Shown here one piece after another: positions 1 through 32,330 of a stretch of 32,330 nucleotides of DNA. The notes beneath the pieces are model-generated. The model ran no database searches, had not been told where the DNA came from, and saw only the letters and a program-made list of their open reading frames with translations. This DNA comes from Bernardetiaceae bacterium (GTDB lineage: Bacteria; Bacteroidota; Bacteroidia; Cytophagales; Bernardetiaceae), in contig JAFIER010000238.1 of the NCBI GenBank assembly GCA_020832465.1, positions 1 to 32,330 on the forward strand. The letters run 5' to 3'. Made by a program: the position numbers and the translations under genes. Numbering within the stretch: the stretch's first letter is position 1; every line of letters starts with the position of its first letter.

Positions 1-36
1 TTTCCAAATATAGCGATGCAACAACGCCAATATAAG

Positions 37-1017
37 TTATAAATATTGTTTTCGGAACTTTTTGGTATAAGATTTTTCTATAAAAGAAAAAAGTGCCGTA
101 GCTTGTTGCTGTGCTTGCACTTCCGAAATTTCGGCATTTTCCCAATCAACATGTATTTTGCTTATTTTTTTACGAAAACGAACTTTGCTACGCCTTGCAA
201 GCAATACTTTATTAGGATACAAACGAAAACCTAAAAATGGCAATCCGTGTGTAGTTTTGTTCAAATAACTTATTTTAAGCGTAAGAGCAAGTCTATCGGT
301 TAGATAATGTTTTATCTGCTGTTGAACTTTTTGTAAATACTTATGGTCGTTGTGCCAAACTACAAAATCGTCCATGTAGCGAACATAAGCCTTTGCTTTT
401 AGCTCCTGCTTTATAAAATGATCTGCAAAAGCCAAATAATGATTAGCAAAATACTGACTTGTCAGATTTCCGATAGGTACACCTTTGCCTTTTTGTGTTT
501 CATAACTCTTTAAAATGCGTTTAAACAAAAGCAATAAATCTGCATCTTTAAAACGACGCTCGAGTTGATGATATAAAATATTGTGGTCTATGCTATCAAA
601 ATACTTTCTTATATCCATTTTCAAGAAGTACTTGTACTCTTTTTGCAAGCTAAAAGCTTTATCTAAGGCACGAAAAGTACCTTTACCTATGCGTGTGGCA
701 TAGCTATCAGATATTTGAAATTTTTCAAAGTGTTCGTGACATACATTCATTATAGCGTGGTGCAATATACGCTCGGGGAAGGATGCGGCGCAAATTTGTC
801 GCTTTTTCGGATCATATATTGTAAAATAATGATAATCTCCGACCACAAGCTGCCCTTTGAGTATCTGACTTTGCAAATATTTTAGATTAGTTTTAAGATT
901 TTTGCCGTAAGCCATAACCTCTTTTTTATGCGACTTTCCCTTCTTTGCCTTATAATATGCCAATAGCAGATTATTCCACTCTGCTATCCTTGGCATTAGA
1001 TACCCTACTCGCTTCAT
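37..1017 (-). CDS. Diversity-generating retroelement reverse transcriptase
   Basis: This 326-residue protein is a complete group II-intron-like reverse transcriptase of the DGR class. It should copy the template repeat RNA into cDNA with errors at adenines, which then replaces the variable region of a target gene. The first catalytic aspartate is in LKMDIRKYFDSIDH (D135). Motif 4 reads IGNLTSQ (182-188), the DGR form in place of the QGxxxSP of other reverse transcriptases, and the catalytic YMDD box is at 214-217. There is no maturase, endonuclease or integrase domain, and the length fits the family. Its start overlaps the end of the upstream HRDC gene by 47 bases, so the two are probably translationally coupled. 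A shorter start at residue 8 is possible. Seen: motifs and overlap. Known: the SQ signature marks DGR enzymes. Confidence 0.95.
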   Translation of the reverse strand: MKRVGYLMPRIAEWNNLLLAYYKAKKGKSHKKEVMAYGKNLKTNLKYLQSQILKGQLVVGDYHYFTIYDPKKRQICAASFPERILHHAIMNVCHEHFEKFQISDSYATRIGKGTFRALDKAFSLQKEYKYFLKMDIRKYFDSIDHNILYHQLERRFKDADLLLLFKRILKSYETQKGKGVPIGNLTSQYFANHYLAFADHFIKQELKAKAYVRYMDDFVVWHNDHKYLQKVQQQIKHYLTDRLALTLKISYLNKTTHGLPFLGFRLYPNKVLLARRSKVRFRKKISKIHVDWENAEISEVQAQQQATALFSFIEKSYTKKFRKQYL

Positions 1018-1465
1018 CAGATAATTGTTTATAACATTCTAAAAATTGAACACCGTACTTTTCAGCCTTCATTTTTCCGATGCCTTTGATACTCGTAAGC
1101 GCACCGATACTAAGCTCAGGAAGCTGTGCCATTTGTGCTAATTGCGCATTCGTAAAAATTACAAACACAGATACAGCCTCTTTATCTGCGATTTCTTTTC
1201 GAGCTTTGCGCATTATAGCAAATTTTGCAAAAGTAACCTCGTCAAGTTCTTTCCGATAATCTACTTTGCTTTTCGGAGTCTGCTCCCCTAAGGTCGGCAA
1301 CAGATAACTCACGCAAACACACCAATAGGCATTTGCAGGCATCGTTACCAAATGCTTCTCGACTTCTATAATTTTATGACTACTCAAAAAAGCATTAAGC
1401 TCCTGCTCAAAAACAACCGAATCTAATATCGGTATAGTAAAAAGTTTAATTTGCATCATAATCAT
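971..1465 (-). CDS. HRDC-domain DGR accessory protein
   Basis: This small 164-residue protein has an N-terminal region beginning MQIKLFTIPILD and a C-terminal HRDC (helicase and RNase D C-terminal) helical domain at about 79-147. The HRDC pattern includes FTNAQLAQMAQLPE and the helix-turn IKGIGKMKAEKYG. HRDC proteins are a known alternative to the Avd accessory protein in DGR cassettes, where they are thought to help the reverse transcriptase bind nucleic acid. The gene lies directly upstream of, and overlaps, the reverse transcriptase, which fits that role. Three methionines in the first four residues make the exact start uncertain by up to nine bases. A terminator-like hairpin lies about 70 bases upstream, so expression needs read-through or its own promoter; I found no clear promoter box. 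Confidence 0.88.
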   Translation of the reverse strand: MIMMQIKLFTIPILDSVVFEQELNAFLSSHKIIEVEKHLVTMPANAYWCVCVSYLLPTLGEQTPKSKVDYRKELDEVTFAKFAIMRKARKEIADKEAVSVFVIFTNAQLAQMAQLPELSIGALTSIKGIGKMKAEKYGVQFLECYKQLSDEASRVSNAKDSRVE

Positions 1466-1514
1466 TTTGTGTCATGCACCTATCAAAAAGTGCTAATTCA
1501 TAATTAAAACCGAC

Positions 1515-1544
1515 GCACCCTAAAGGGTACGATACTGAAAAAAA
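1515..1544. repeat. Conserved box beside terminator, copy 1
   Basis: A 30-base sequence containing accctaaagggtacgatact and ending in an A tract is identical to the one at 28951-28980. Its core is a small palindrome (accct aa agggt). In both places it sits next to a GC hairpin and downstream of an FGE-domain gene with a variable-region-like end. Its function is unknown. Confidence 0.85.
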
Positions 1545-1561
1545 TTCCCCGCTTCGCGGGG
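1538..1561 (-). terminator. Rho-independent terminator after DGR target gene
   Basis: Read on the minus strand, a ccccgc/gcgggg stem with a three-base loop (1547-1561) is followed by aa and a run of seven T. It lies between the target gene and the HRDC-reverse transcriptase pair. An equivalent hairpin plus T tract, next to the same flanking box, follows the second FGE gene. Confidence 0.75.
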
Positions 1562-1583
1562 ATAACCACAACAATACCCGAAC

Positions 1584-1655
1584 GGTTTTGGTCTTGAAAT
1601 AGCCTTCTACATTTCGCTCACGCTACATTACGTTGGCTATTTCCCGACCAAAACC
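1584..1655. repeat. Long inverted repeat downstream of the variable region
   Basis: The arms 1584-1604 and 1635-1655 are reverse complements over 21 bases with two mismatches, around a 30-base loop. It begins about 36 bases after the stop codon that would be used in the shifted frame of the target gene (1692-1694). In the Bordetella phage BPP-1 DGR, a hairpin or cruciform just downstream of the variable region assists target recognition; this stem is longer but in a comparable place. Whether it serves that role here is inference. Confidence 0.8.
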
Positions 1656-2397
1656 TCTTGAGCTTAAATGAGGTAGGAGTAAAACCAACAGCTAAACTAC
1701 AGGGAGAGCAAACAAGCGGCAGCCGAGGCTTGAAACGGCTGGCGGGGTTGTTGAAGTTGCGGTTCGCCACACGGCAGTAGTCGGGGTAGAAGTCCCACGA
1801 GCCACCGCGCAGCAGGCGATACGTACCTCGTGGCTTATCTACCCAAGCCGAGCCATCCTTAGTCGCGCCTTTATAGCGATTGTGACAGTCGTCTTCGCAC
1901 CACTCCCGTACATTTCCACTCATATCATAAATGCCGAGTTGGTTGGGCTTTTTGAGTCCGACAGGCTTGCTCTCTTTGTGGCTATTGCCGTTATACCAAG
2001 CCACTTCGTTCACATCGTTACTGCCCGCATACTCAAAGCCCTCTTTGTGGTGTGTGCCTCCACGGGCGGCGTATTCCCACTGCGCTTCCGAAGGCAAAGC
2101 AAACTTCCATTCGCTCATTTCTTCGTTGAGTTTTGTGATAAACGTTTGGCAATCATTCCAACTCACCGTATCCACAGGGCGGTCTTTGCCTTTGAAATAA
2201 GCGGGGTTCTCACCCATCACGGCTTCCCATAGCTGCTGCAACACAGGGTATTTGCCTATCCAAAAGTCGGGGAGAGAGACTTTGTGTATGGGTTGTTCCT
2301 CTTCCCTTTTTTCACTTCCCATCATAAACTCTCCGCCTTTGACGAGGATAAGCTCGATGGGGATTTTTTTGTAATATAGGGTTTTGGTTTCCGTCAT
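1618..2397 (-). CDS. FGE/SUMF1-type lectin-fold protein, DGR target
   Basis: This 259-residue protein is a single formylglycine-generating-enzyme-like domain (C-type lectin fold), from GGEFMMGS at 21-28 through ALPSEAQWEYAARGG, GIYDMSGNVREWCEDD and LRGGSW at 196-201. It has no signal peptide. DGR targets commonly use this fold to display randomised ligand-binding residues rather than for catalysis. After W201, the codons for D, F, Y, P, D and Y all end in C, and they precede CRVANRNFNNP. This is what adenine mutagenesis of AAC codons would leave. The usual G-F-R ending is missing: the frame reads KPRLPLVCSPCSL and continues about 30 residues through the downstream inverted repeat. Skipping one base after codon 222 gives LGCRLFALPVV and a stop at 1692-1694, so a frameshift is likely and the true end may be 1692. 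Confidence 0.87.
   Translation of the reverse strand: MTETKTLYYKKIPIELILVKGGEFMMGSEKREEEQPIHKVSLPDFWIGKYPVLQQLWEAVMGENPAYFKGKDRPVDTVSWNDCQTFITKLNEEMSEWKFALPSEAQWEYAARGGTHHKEGFEYAGSNDVNEVAWYNGNSHKESKPVGLKKPNQLGIYDMSGNVREWCEDDCHNRYKGATKDGSAWVDKPRGTYRLLRGGSWDFYPDYCRVANRNFNNPASRFKPRLPLVCSPCSLAVGFTPTSFKLKRFWSGNSQRNVA
1709..1815 (-). other. DGR variable region (VR1)
   Basis: This is the 3' end of the target gene from LRGGSW onward. It holds a cluster of NNC codons (gac, ttc, tac, ccc, gac, tac, aac, ttc, aac, aac, agc, ttc), as expected from a template rich in AAC, and ends in a GC-rich stretch (cctcggctgccgc) where an initiation-of-mutagenic-homing site would lie. The template repeat itself is not in the window, so the exact limits are estimates. 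Confidence 0.72.
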
Positions 2398-28560: not shown

Positions 28561-28681
28561 ACCCGCAGAAGACGAACCGCTCAAGTTTAACTTTTATATC
28601 CTTACTTACGGATTTTACACTTATTAGTTTTTTTAACACCTCATCATATAGCATAGCAAATTTCTTTCCTATCTTCTTTTT

Positions 28682-28783
28682 GTCTGAAGCAAGATTTTCA
28701 GGATTTTGGGATTTGCTTGATTAAAATATAACCGCCCCTTTATCTCCTGCTTGAAACCTCAAGGACGGTCGAAGTCCTCCTTG
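28682..28783. repeat. Interspersed repeat, copy also at right edge
   Basis: Bases 28682-28758 (tctgaagcaagattttcagg onward, then the module aaaatataaccgcccctt) and the module cctcaaggacggtcgaag at 28757 are found again at 32196-32250 and 32303-32330. The right copy has an extra hairpin between modules, so the units are modular. Confidence 0.85.
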
Positions 28784-28893
28784 ACGGTTGAACGAAATTG
28801 TCTGAATCAAGATTTTCAAGATTTTAGGATTTACTTGATTGGCGTAATCCTGAAAATCTTTGAACCCCGTGAATCCTGATGCTGACAATTTCC

Positions 28894-28930
28894 AAACCTC
28901 GGAAGCGGTCGAAGACCCTCCCGATGGTTG
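28894..28930. repeat. Module cctcggaagcggtcgaagac, inverted relative at 17214
   Basis: This stretch, ending ccctcccgatggtt, resembles the reverse complement of 17214-17262 (accatcgggagggtgttctt onward). It also resembles the cctcaagg module upstream. Confidence 0.65.
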
Positions 28931-28950: not shown

Positions 28951-28980
28951 GCACCCTAAAGGGTACGATACTGAAAAAAA
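28951..28980. repeat. Conserved box beside terminator, copy 2
   Basis: Identical over 30 bases to 1515-1544, including accctaaagggtacgatact and the A tract. Again it sits next to a GC hairpin and downstream of an FGE gene. Confidence 0.85.
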
Positions 28981-29088: not shown

Positions 29089-29129
29089 ATTTTTTTTAGC
29101 TCTAAGAATAAGCCAGAAGCACCGACTGA

Positions 29130-30989
29130 CTATAAAGAGAGCAGGCGAAAACCGTTGTAGTAGTCACGGTAGTCCGGCGCGTTGAGGCCACGATCTGCTA
29201 TACGGCAATCAGTGGCATCGTTGAGCCACGAGCCGCCGCGCAACACACGATGGCTAGCACGAGGATTATCTGTCCAAGCCGAACCATCGCTGGGCGCACC
29301 TTCGTAGTTTGAGTGCCAATCGTCTTCGCACCATTCAAATACGTTTCCGCTCATATCGTAAATGCCGAGTTCGTTAGCTTGCTTTGTCTTGACAGGGTGT
29401 GTTGTGCCTTCACTTCCGTGCTTACTTTGCTGATAATTCCCACCATACCAAGCTACCTCATCAATATCATTAGAACCCGCATATTTATAGCCTTTACTTT
29501 TATTTCCTCCTCGAGCAGCAAACTCCCACTCAGCCTCTGTAGGTAATCTAAAGGTTTTGTCCGTAAGGGTATTGAGCTCTTTGATAAACGATTTGCAATC
29601 ATTCCAACTCACGTTCTCCACAGGGCAATCGTCGCAGCCTTTATTGTAGAGTTTCTCGGGGTCGCTACGCATCACCGCTCGCCATAGCTTTTGCGTTACC
29701 TCAGTCTCAGCAACATAGTAGTCCGATAATGTAACCTCACGCACTGGCTTTTCATCACTCGCACAATCGCTACCCTGCTCGGAGGTGCAGCCCATAGTGA
29801 AGGTGCCGCCCTCCACATAAATCATAGTAAAAGATACGCCCTTGACCTCTATGGTGATATTTTCGCCATTGGGAGTAGGGGCCTCCTCATCTTTGGGTGT
29901 TTTTATCCAATCTATAATTCTCTTGGCGATGCCTTTTTTCTTTGCTTTTTGGGCTGCGGTTTTGAAGTCGGCTTGGGCTTGCTGGGTTTTGCCTGTTTTT
30001 TGATATACTGTGCCCCTCGCTTCGTAAGCTCTAAAAAAGTCTCTATCTTCTTCGATGGCTTTGCTTTGTGCTTCTGTGGCTTTGTCGTAGCGCCCTTCGG
30101 CAGCATACTGCGCCCCTTCGAGGTGTTTGGTGTATGCTTTTTCGTTTTGAGTAGCCTCTGTGGTGTAGCTTTTTACAAGCTGCTGCGCTTCGGGTTTGAG
30201 TTTTTTCTTACCCTCTTGCACCTCGATACCCACATTGAGGAGTTTAAGAATTTCGGTGTACATTTGTTCTTGTAGGCTTATTAGGTTATCGGCTTCTTCC
30301 GAGATGGACTGCCAGTAGGCTTGCTTGGTTTGCAAGTCTATAAACTCGCATGTAACTCTCCAAGTACCTCTGATATTTTTTTTATACATACCCATCACTA
30401 CGATATTGGCATTGAGGTCTTCGCTCATTTTTACGATTTCGTTGATATCGCAATAGGTATTTCTGTTGAGTTGGCGTTGTTGCATAGCTGCACGCACGGC
30501 AGAAGAAGGCACGCACTCGAGCTTCTGCTTATCTACATACTCGAGCGCATCGTTAGCCGTAGATGTAAAAGCCCCCTCTATGAGTGGCTTATCAGCCGAG
30601 TCGTCGCAAAAAGGCAATACAGCAATGCGCTTTTTTTCCGCAGGCAGCGGCTGCTTTATCATAACGATGGTTAGGAAGGTCTCGCGCTCCTCTGGTGCTA
30701 CCCGATACCGATGCTTATACAAAGGTGTAGCCAGATAATAACCCTCCTTTATGACGGTAATATCCACAGACGCATCACGAAATACAGCCAGCGTCGGAAT
30801 ATCAAAATACCCGTTTGGTGCTTTGGTTCTATCCGAAGCATCGGCAAAGAAAATATCAACGCCTGCAATTGGATTGCCATCGCTATCTACTACCCTACCC
30901 GCAAGTTTGGTTTGCGAAGGCACGGGTCTTTCTTGCGCCAGCAGGCAAGTCGGTAGGCACAAAAGGATAATGAAAAGTAAGTTTTTCAT
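29130..30989 (-). CDS. Secreted protein with TPR and FGE/SUMF1 lectin-fold domain; candidate DGR target
   Basis: This 619-residue protein has a signal peptide (LLFIILLCLPTCLLAQ) and a carboxypeptidase-regulatory-like beta domain at about 28-115 (LAGRVVDSDGNPIAGVDIFF). A CsgG/TolB-like segment follows at about 125-255 (KKRIAVLPFCDDS, ANIVVMGMYK), then TPR-like helices at 275-350. The C-terminus is an FGE-like domain from about 385 (YVEGGTFTMGC, RLPTEAEWEFAARGG, GIYDMSGNVFEWCEDD, VLRGGSW ending at 588). The last 31 residues (LNDATDCRIADRGLNAPDYR then DYYNGFRLLSL) have D, Y, L and G at positions that are Asn in FGE relatives, as in DGR variable regions. Codon third bases differ from the left-hand target, so the same template is unlikely. 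It follows the coiled-coil membrane protein gene by 65 bases. Confidence 0.9.
   Translation of the reverse strand: MKNLLFIILLCLPTCLLAQERPVPSQTKLAGRVVDSDGNPIAGVDIFFADASDRTKAPNGYFDIPTLAVFRDASVDITVIKEGYYLATPLYKHRYRVAPEERETFLTIVMIKQPLPAEKKRIAVLPFCDDSADKPLIEGAFTSTANDALEYVDKQKLECVPSSAVRAAMQQRQLNRNTYCDINEIVKMSEDLNANIVVMGMYKKNIRGTWRVTCEFIDLQTKQAYWQSISEEADNLISLQEQMYTEILKLLNVGIEVQEGKKKLKPEAQQLVKSYTTEATQNEKAYTKHLEGAQYAAEGRYDKATEAQSKAIEEDRDFFRAYEARGTVYQKTGKTQQAQADFKTAAQKAKKKGIAKRIIDWIKTPKDEEAPTPNGENITIEVKGVSFTMIYVEGGTFTMGCTSEQGSDCASDEKPVREVTLSDYYVAETEVTQKLWRAVMRSDPEKLYNKGCDDCPVENVSWNDCKSFIKELNTLTDKTFRLPTEAEWEFAARGGNKSKGYKYAGSNDIDEVAWYGGNYQQSKHGSEGTTHPVKTKQANELGIYDMSGNVFEWCEDDWHSNYEGAPSDGSAWTDNPRASHRVLRGGSWLNDATDCRIADRGLNAPDYRDYYNGFRLLSL
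29147..29240 (-). other. Candidate DGR variable region (VR2)
   Basis: The segment from RGGSW to GFRL at the end of the second FGE gene aligns with VR1 of the left target around the shared CR-A-R core. Randomised-looking residues flank conserved ones. Without the template this remains a candidate. Confidence 0.45.
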
Positions 30990-32195: not shown

Positions 32196-32330
32196 TCGGA
32201 AGCAATATTTTCAAGATTAAAATATAACCGCCCCTTTATCCCCTCCTTGAAAAGGTGGGGAGTTTGCCTACAACTCCCCACCTAAGATTAGGCTGGGCTA
32301 AAACCTCAAGGACGGTCGAAGACCTCCTTG
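32196..32330. repeat. Interspersed repeat at right edge, runs off the window
   Basis: Modules shared with 28682-28783 and 28242-28266. In the middle a 12-bp perfect inverted repeat (arms 32253-32264 and 32272-32283, aggtggggagtt) forms a hairpin. Confidence 0.85.

Follow-up and report, generated by a model that had tools for sequence, protein, structure and literature searches.

Diversity-generating retroelements (DGRs) rewrite a short stretch of selected sensor genes. How their mutagenised cDNA finds and enters a target is incompletely understood (PMC12875486), and the question is posed again by a cassette in the genome of a Bernardetiaceae bacterium (4.6 Mb, 289 contigs). The DNA analysed here, referred to as the window, is the entire contig C276 of 32,330 nucleotides, at one end of which the initial annotation had placed a DGR (37-2397). 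A DGR-type reverse transcriptase (RT), a template repeat (TR) differing at adenines and an FGE target with a variable repeat (VR) were all found, which bears out that assignment. The three ORFs also lie where they had been listed, all on the minus strand in the order FGE target with VR1, HRDC accessory gene, RT and contig end, and the overlap reported between the RT and HRDC genes amounts to 47 bp:

37-1017, minus strand: DGR reverse transcriptase, 326 aa, with the motifs IGNLTSQ and YMDD (Pfam RVT_1, E 1.9e-17)
971-1465, minus strand: HRDC accessory protein, N-terminal alpha-beta-beta domain and C-terminal HRDC fold (Pfam HRDC, E 3.2e-16)
1618-2397, minus strand: cassette target of the FGE/C-type-lectin fold, with a frameshift at its 3' end in the present assembly (Pfam FGE-sulfatase, E 4.7e-42)
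1697-1818, minus strand: VR1, with 14 substitutions relative to the template TR1, all at TR adenines, and a 2-nt deletion (frameshift)

The IGNLTSQ motif, correctly recognised before, conforms to the [I/V/L]GxxxSQ that replaces QGxxxSP in DGR-type RTs. Among solved structures, the window RT is best matched by the 'Reverse transcriptase' (328 aa) of 8ub7-8ube (4.6e-45), which we take to be the BPP-1 DGR RT, while group II intron RTs match at 3.5e-16. Among the 11 genomes of the family compared, the source genome included, no other genome has a matching RT. The HRDC protein has a true HRDC fold, its best matches being the HRDC domains of WRN, BLM and RecQ; for its N-terminal domain, no clear solved relative was found. 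This protein occupies the place of avd, and the Avd model gave no match in the window cassette locus or in the locus of a second DGR on contig C245. HRDC instead of Avd is, as had been stated, the less common arrangement, and it is known from earlier work (PMC4891356, PMC10053308). Rfam gave no match, hence no group II intron ribozyme, in the DGR loci scanned, including L004 and L017. The genome also encodes a third RT (L001/L005, on C272), which is an outgroup to all DGR RTs and probably belongs to a group II intron.

A search of the genome with the 3' part of the target gene returned a number of FGE genes, together with a single short match on contig C38. The latter, at C38 3224-3333 on the minus strand, is the predicted adenine-differing template copy, TR1; it is AAC-rich, begins TGGAACAACAACCCCGACAACTGCC, and lies outside the window, displaced by an IS insertion. 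TR1 serves remote targets as well, i.e. a CHAT-FGE protein on C222, whose VR differs from TR1 by 15 adenine changes and at 0 of 80 non-A positions, and a kinase-FGE protein on C182 beside VWA and PP2C genes, whose VR shows 14 adenine changes and no non-A change. Contig C245 holds the complete second DGR, which is likewise of the HRDC type and consists of an LRR-FGE target with VR2, HRDC, RT and TR2; here the TR lies in the RT locus, and TR2 differs from its own VR by 18 adenine changes and no others. One further target lies at the far end of the window:

29130-30989, minus strand: remote target of the C245 DGR, a TPR/FGE protein of 619 aa with a signal-like N-terminus
29130-29255, minus strand: VR2 of this target, with 15 adenine mismatches and 0 non-A mismatches

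The comparison of TR2 with this VR2 covered window positions 29136-29247, and its 15 adenine and 0 other changes indicate that the window holds a remote target of DGR2; the description of the region as an otherwise ordinary piece of chromosome is therefore refuted. Over the five VRs and two TRs of this genome, all 76 of 76 TR-to-VR substitutions fall at TR adenines, so that variation is restricted to these positions save for the one 2-nt deletion. The run of NNC codons noticed in the FGE gene is real and beyond chance, the 14 substitutions of VR1 relative to TR1 all falling at TR adenines. Each VR is at the 3' end of its gene, and PF03781 was found in all full targets. The coordinates given for the cassette target were right, but its 3' end is out of frame, which had been overlooked: as VR1 has a 2-nt deletion relative to TR1, the ORF leaves the normal frame, and the usual target end GCRLFALPVV* is replaced by ...RLPLVCSPC... 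(RLPLVCSPCSLAVGF).

Several side observations concern the surroundings of these targets. On C182 (L015, 92-4255) the kinase-FGE target is divergent from the VWA and PP2C genes, forming a kinase/phosphatase/VWA triad whose sensor is varied by a DGR. A dispersed intergenic repeat around atcaagtaaatcccaaaatcctgaaaatcttgattcagacaaa occurs at window 28670-28930 and 32200-32330 and on many contigs, frequently close to FGE genes and the ends of contigs, and a short repeat, GTATCGTACCCTTTAGGGTGC, occurs at window 1513-1546 and 28951-28980 and on C105, C95 and C38, after DGR target hairpins and elsewhere.

The displacement of TR1 can be read from the contig ends. Between the end of the RT stop codon and that of the window lie 36 bases, the last 28 of which are an IS terminus:

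1-28, minus strand: terminus of a multicopy IS element (GGCGTTGTTGCATCGCTATATTTGGAAA), recognised by 24-mer recurrence; the contig breaks within the element
29-37, minus strand: 9-bp target-site duplication ACTTATATT, with a second copy beside the IS terminus of C38, just upstream of TR1

The 24-mer of the window terminus was found at four contig places and the opposite terminus at five or more, and 9-bp duplications of the same kind join two other contig pairs, C250/C84 (TATTTGAGT) and C234/C29 (AATAGAAAA); the element is seen through its termini, its interior not being assembled in the contigs examined. As the IS termini at both contig ends share the 9 flanking bases, the stretch between the RT stop codon and TR1 is the most likely site of the IS insertion. 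C276 and C38 are not joined in the assembly, and the place of TR1 in the locus of the window RT is deduced in this way; without the IS, TR1 would start ~40 nt past the RT stop, near the RT as in relatives. Adjoining TR1 on C38 (L017, 586-2931) is an LRR-Roc-COR GTPase gene, beyond which two small genes (72 and 71 aa) resemble a toxin-antitoxin pair.

Since the IS splits the RT from TR1 and VR1 is frameshifted, DGR1 may be impaired in this strain. It is quite possible, though we lean against it, that the window DGR1 is a dying element which retains only sequence traces of past activity, a reading compatible with the explanation of its targeting favoured below. The insertion with its 9-bp duplication and the deletion in VR1 speak for it. 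On the other hand, TR1 shows no non-A substitution against any of its three VRs, which points to recent homing, and both RT and HRDC are intact. The TR may act in trans, in which case fresh homing would overwrite the deletion, and the latter may be either an error of homing or one of the draft assembly.

To place the cassette among other DGRs, we sorted RT loci by their accessory genes. A phylum-wide search returned 38 of 395 genomes, and the nearest RTs are those of Saprospiraceae and Bacteroidaceae MAGs. With the HRDC and Avd protein models, the RTs closest to the window RT were found beside HRDC without Avd, and the next closest beside Avd. TR/VR pairs could be identified in 98 loci; the TR is just downstream of the RT in all HRDC-only loci, and upstream of the RT domain in the Avd loci of the same set and in nearly all viral loci. 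The HRDC RTs form one clade (support 100/98, 29 rows), and the window RT falls inside it, among other HRDC-associated DGR RTs; having HRDC beside the RT and no Avd, the window cassette belongs to this HRDC-only clade. HRDC DGRs also occur on three viral contigs. Both HRDC and Avd genes are present in L074, which stands at the base of the HRDC clade with weak support (91/46), and in L199 (Prosthecochloris aestuarii plasmid pPAES01).

The HRDC-only DGRs share a feature, noticed first by eye and tested afterwards, that may bear on how the cDNA finds its target. A segment of ~32 nt directly 3' of the TR, here called X', is the reverse complement of a segment of ~35 nt directly 3' of the VR, called X, which is placed between the VR and a hairpin. 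In the window these are as follows:

1662-1696, minus strand: X1, the 35 nt immediately following the 3' end of VR1, complementary to the X'1 that immediately follows TR1 on C38
1584-1655, minus strand: long imperfect hairpin 3' of X1, with a stem of 10 + 9 bp and a loop of ~30 nt
29099-29129, minus strand: X2, the same as X2 of the C245 target and complementary to X'2 beside TR2 on C245
29020-29088, minus strand: perfect 22-bp hairpin 3' of X2, with AGGGACG in the loop

Local alignment of X and X' gave a mean z of 9.2 in the HRDC group vs 0.5 in the others. With a fixed geometry (34 nt past the TR, 36 nt past the VR, ends strictly called), each of the 23 HRDC-only loci scored above all of its 100 shuffles (median z 8.6), and of 77 other DGRs one did so (median z 0.2); these 23 loci are mostly from one genus, comprise about eight unlike X families, and are not an independent sample, as the geometry was chosen after some of them had been seen. 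TR/VR ends were re-anchored for L060, L054 and L070-072, and L041 was excluded because its X' is longer, its pairing ending at TAAACAG. A viral HRDC DGR found later, L196, has a shorter pairing (11 bp, z 3.4). Covariation over 20 loci and a 27-pair structure is pronounced: 90.2% of the cells are standard pairs and 16 of the 27 pairs show two-sided changes, on none of the five measures did a single one of 500 shuffles come up to this, and pairing in slid versions fell to 27-51%. The edges are equally regular: in nearly all loci the TR is followed without a gap by X' and the VR by X, and X' extends to a conserved (U)GAACAG, located 29-31 nt past the TR in most loci and 48 nt past it in L041.

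X also follows the targets within the genome. It occurs once per DGR1 target (C276, C222 and C182, and with two changes C132) and at both DGR2 targets, and nowhere else. It is identical (35/35) in the window, C222 and C182 targets, the FGE bodies of which are 61-63% identical, and identical (31/31) between the two DGR2 targets. The own pairing of DGR1 and DGR2 is -40.0 and -40.8 kcal/mol, respectively, vs -14.3 and -16.4 kcal/mol when crossed, so that there is no cross-pairing between them within this genome; between unlike families, swapping X and X' likewise weakened or abolished the pairing, and related genera of one family cross-pair partly. Neither the cyanobacterial Avd DGRs with a downstream TR nor L074 showed X/X' pairing, which ties it to the HRDC-only clade and not to gene order, and in Avd DGRs wide windows yielded scattered weak matches with no fixed position (mean z 0.9). 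One match of the BIP-1 spacer with its own hairpin arm (z 3.8, once) was off the fixed position and is not claimed.

The window cassette also has a hairpin downstream of the VR, its stem and loop both longer than those of phage hairpins. In most HRDC loci this hairpin has a stem of mostly 14-24 bp, starts 29-50 nt past the VR and has a loop of 7-30 nt, often containing AGGGACG, vs short stems and loops of 3-5 nt in the Avd loci with a clear hairpin, as is known for phages (PMC3240598). In the scan of HRDC loci, the hairpins of L039, L040, L060 and L074 were no better than shuffles. Between the window and C222 targets, with FGE bodies 61% identical and X 35/35, the hairpin is conserved at 78/80 positions, and the two targets of the Saprospiraceae locus L038 have exactly the same X and unrelated hairpins. 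A complementarity of the hairpin loop to the IMH (TTCGTCCC/GGGACGAA) was considered and rejected, for it holds in one genus only and off-diagonals match the diagonals. Farther downstream in the TR RNA, GGCAAAA and GTTGGTAG-like blocks are common to the HRDC and the viral DGRs; they are covered by no Rfam family and possibly represent a common RT-binding core.

The X/X' pairing itself is well supported, and from it we infer a role in targeting. The window cassette is, in our judgement, probably a DGR of the HRDC-only clade whose TR RNA docks on the target by X'-X pairing, whereby the cDNA is placed on the adjacent VR. The TR RNA would be copied by the adenine-error-prone RT, with the HRDC protein standing in for Avd, and FGE-fold sensor genes, beside the RT and elsewhere in the genome, would have their 3'-terminal VR replaced by the mutagenised cDNA. 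Docking of the TR RNA with its cDNA on the target sense strand would bring the cDNA to the correct VR, whether in cis or in trans, rather than to the TR; having X' but no X, the TR locus would be spared. If the cDNA is primed at or near GAACAG, with the cDNA-RNA joint there, the RNA X' and the cDNA would form one antisense strand that matches VR-IMH-X of the target gaplessly, since X begins exactly at the VR end. The paired strand would be the one complementary to the cDNA, a strand favoured when it is the lagging-strand template (PMC12875486). In BPP-1 the cDNA begins inside IMH*, attached to an adenine of the RNA spacer (PMC12875486). Against the model, the BPP-1 cDNA is self-primed (PMC12875486) and the sequence of its hairpin stem tolerates change (PMC3240598); hence the HRDC clade would need a targeting step of its own. 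More broadly, we incline towards the view that HRDC-only DGRs are RNA-guided, a TR RNA segment of 31-35 nt selecting, by pairing with the target beside the VR, the genes to be diversified; two DGRs of one cell would thereby keep separate target sets, and targets could be re-addressed via X' alone. HRDC is a domain known to bind DNA, and the HRDC fold of the accessory protein makes it plausible that it helps to hold the opened target.

Complementarity alone fits RNA-DNA and RNA-mRNA pairing alike. X lies just past the target stop codon, probably inside the target mRNA, and the paired strand is the sense strand, hence the mRNA would pair equally well; the TR RNA might thus pair with the target mRNA instead of DNA, for co-transcriptional docking or expression control. 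We consider this unlikely, as the exact abutment of X on the VR edge suits a cDNA/target junction better than regulation. It is far less probable that X and X' are the terminal inverted repeats of a mobile hairpin-HRDC-RT-TR cassette inserted by the target, their complementarity being a relic of transposition. X and X' do flank this unit, inverted, in all cis loci, and IS and MITE activity has been recorded around other DGRs (PMC10907252), but the remote targets (C222, C182, window 29130 and the second L038 target) have X without HRDC-RT-TR-X', and a cassette repeat would serve no purpose in targets distant from every TR; furthermore, X varies between families and its partner X' follows, the edges match TR and VR ends and not gene ends, and no transposase belongs to the unit. 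About as improbable is pairing of X and X' within one long target-HRDC-RT-TR operon transcript, shaping or protecting the TR RNA, for although the two lie on one strand ~1.7 kb apart in cis loci, X is retained in targets far from any TR, and the TR of the window cassette is cut off by the IS.

Docking of the TR RNA on target DNA, if true, would account for the service of remote and multiple targets, for a template that is not overwritten and for two DGRs without cross-talk, and would make HRDC-only DGRs addressable tools for targeted protein diversification; being covarying and edge-exact, the complementarity offers a simple, direct test of targeting in one clade. The system itself is a DGR, and what is new in the HRDC-only DGRs is the addressing feature X/X'. 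The HRDC accessory (PMC4891356, PMC10053308), remote targets (PMC4891356, PMC10907252), a TR downstream of the RT (PMC3521204) and hairpins (PMC3240598) are already known. The literature searched gave no account of X/X'; the largest DGR survey (Wu 2018) was outside that search, and an earlier mention is possible.

Among known systems, the HRDC DGR of Treponema denticola likewise has an HRDC accessory gene overlapping the RT gene and multiple remote targets, but its accessory gene lies between TR and RT, whereas here the TR follows the RT, and no mention of X/X' was met in the passages of its account consulted (PMC4891356). The BPP-1 DGR shares the adenine-specific TR-to-VR change, the DGR-type RT, the hairpin 3' of the VR and the 3' spacer of the TR RNA (PMC3240598, PMC12875486), but differs in having Avd instead of HRDC, a TR upstream of the RT and an 8-bp stem with a 4-nt loop, without X/X' pairing beside TR and VR. 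In the cyanobacterial plasmid DGRs L198, L201, L202 and L203 ('group 2' of PMC3521204) the TR is downstream of the RT and the targets are FGE proteins as well; however, Avd is present and X/X' absent. The remote targets of DGR1 resemble the conflict-type sensors of multicellular bacteria, for which invader sensing by such FGE proteins has been proposed (PMC7159879, PMC10907252); in both, a diversified FGE domain is found in multidomain sensor-like proteins, with targets in trans and IS activity around the DGR loci, and a search of the text of these two papers met neither retrohoming components of the HRDC type nor a TR flank complementary to the targets. Finally, in the retrohoming of mobile group II introns the RNA base-pairs with its DNA site (PMC3898094); although the HRDC DGRs are without ribozyme or splicing and have an RT of the DGR type, they would, if the proposed model holds, resemble these introns in that the RNA of a retroelement locates a DNA site by base pairing.
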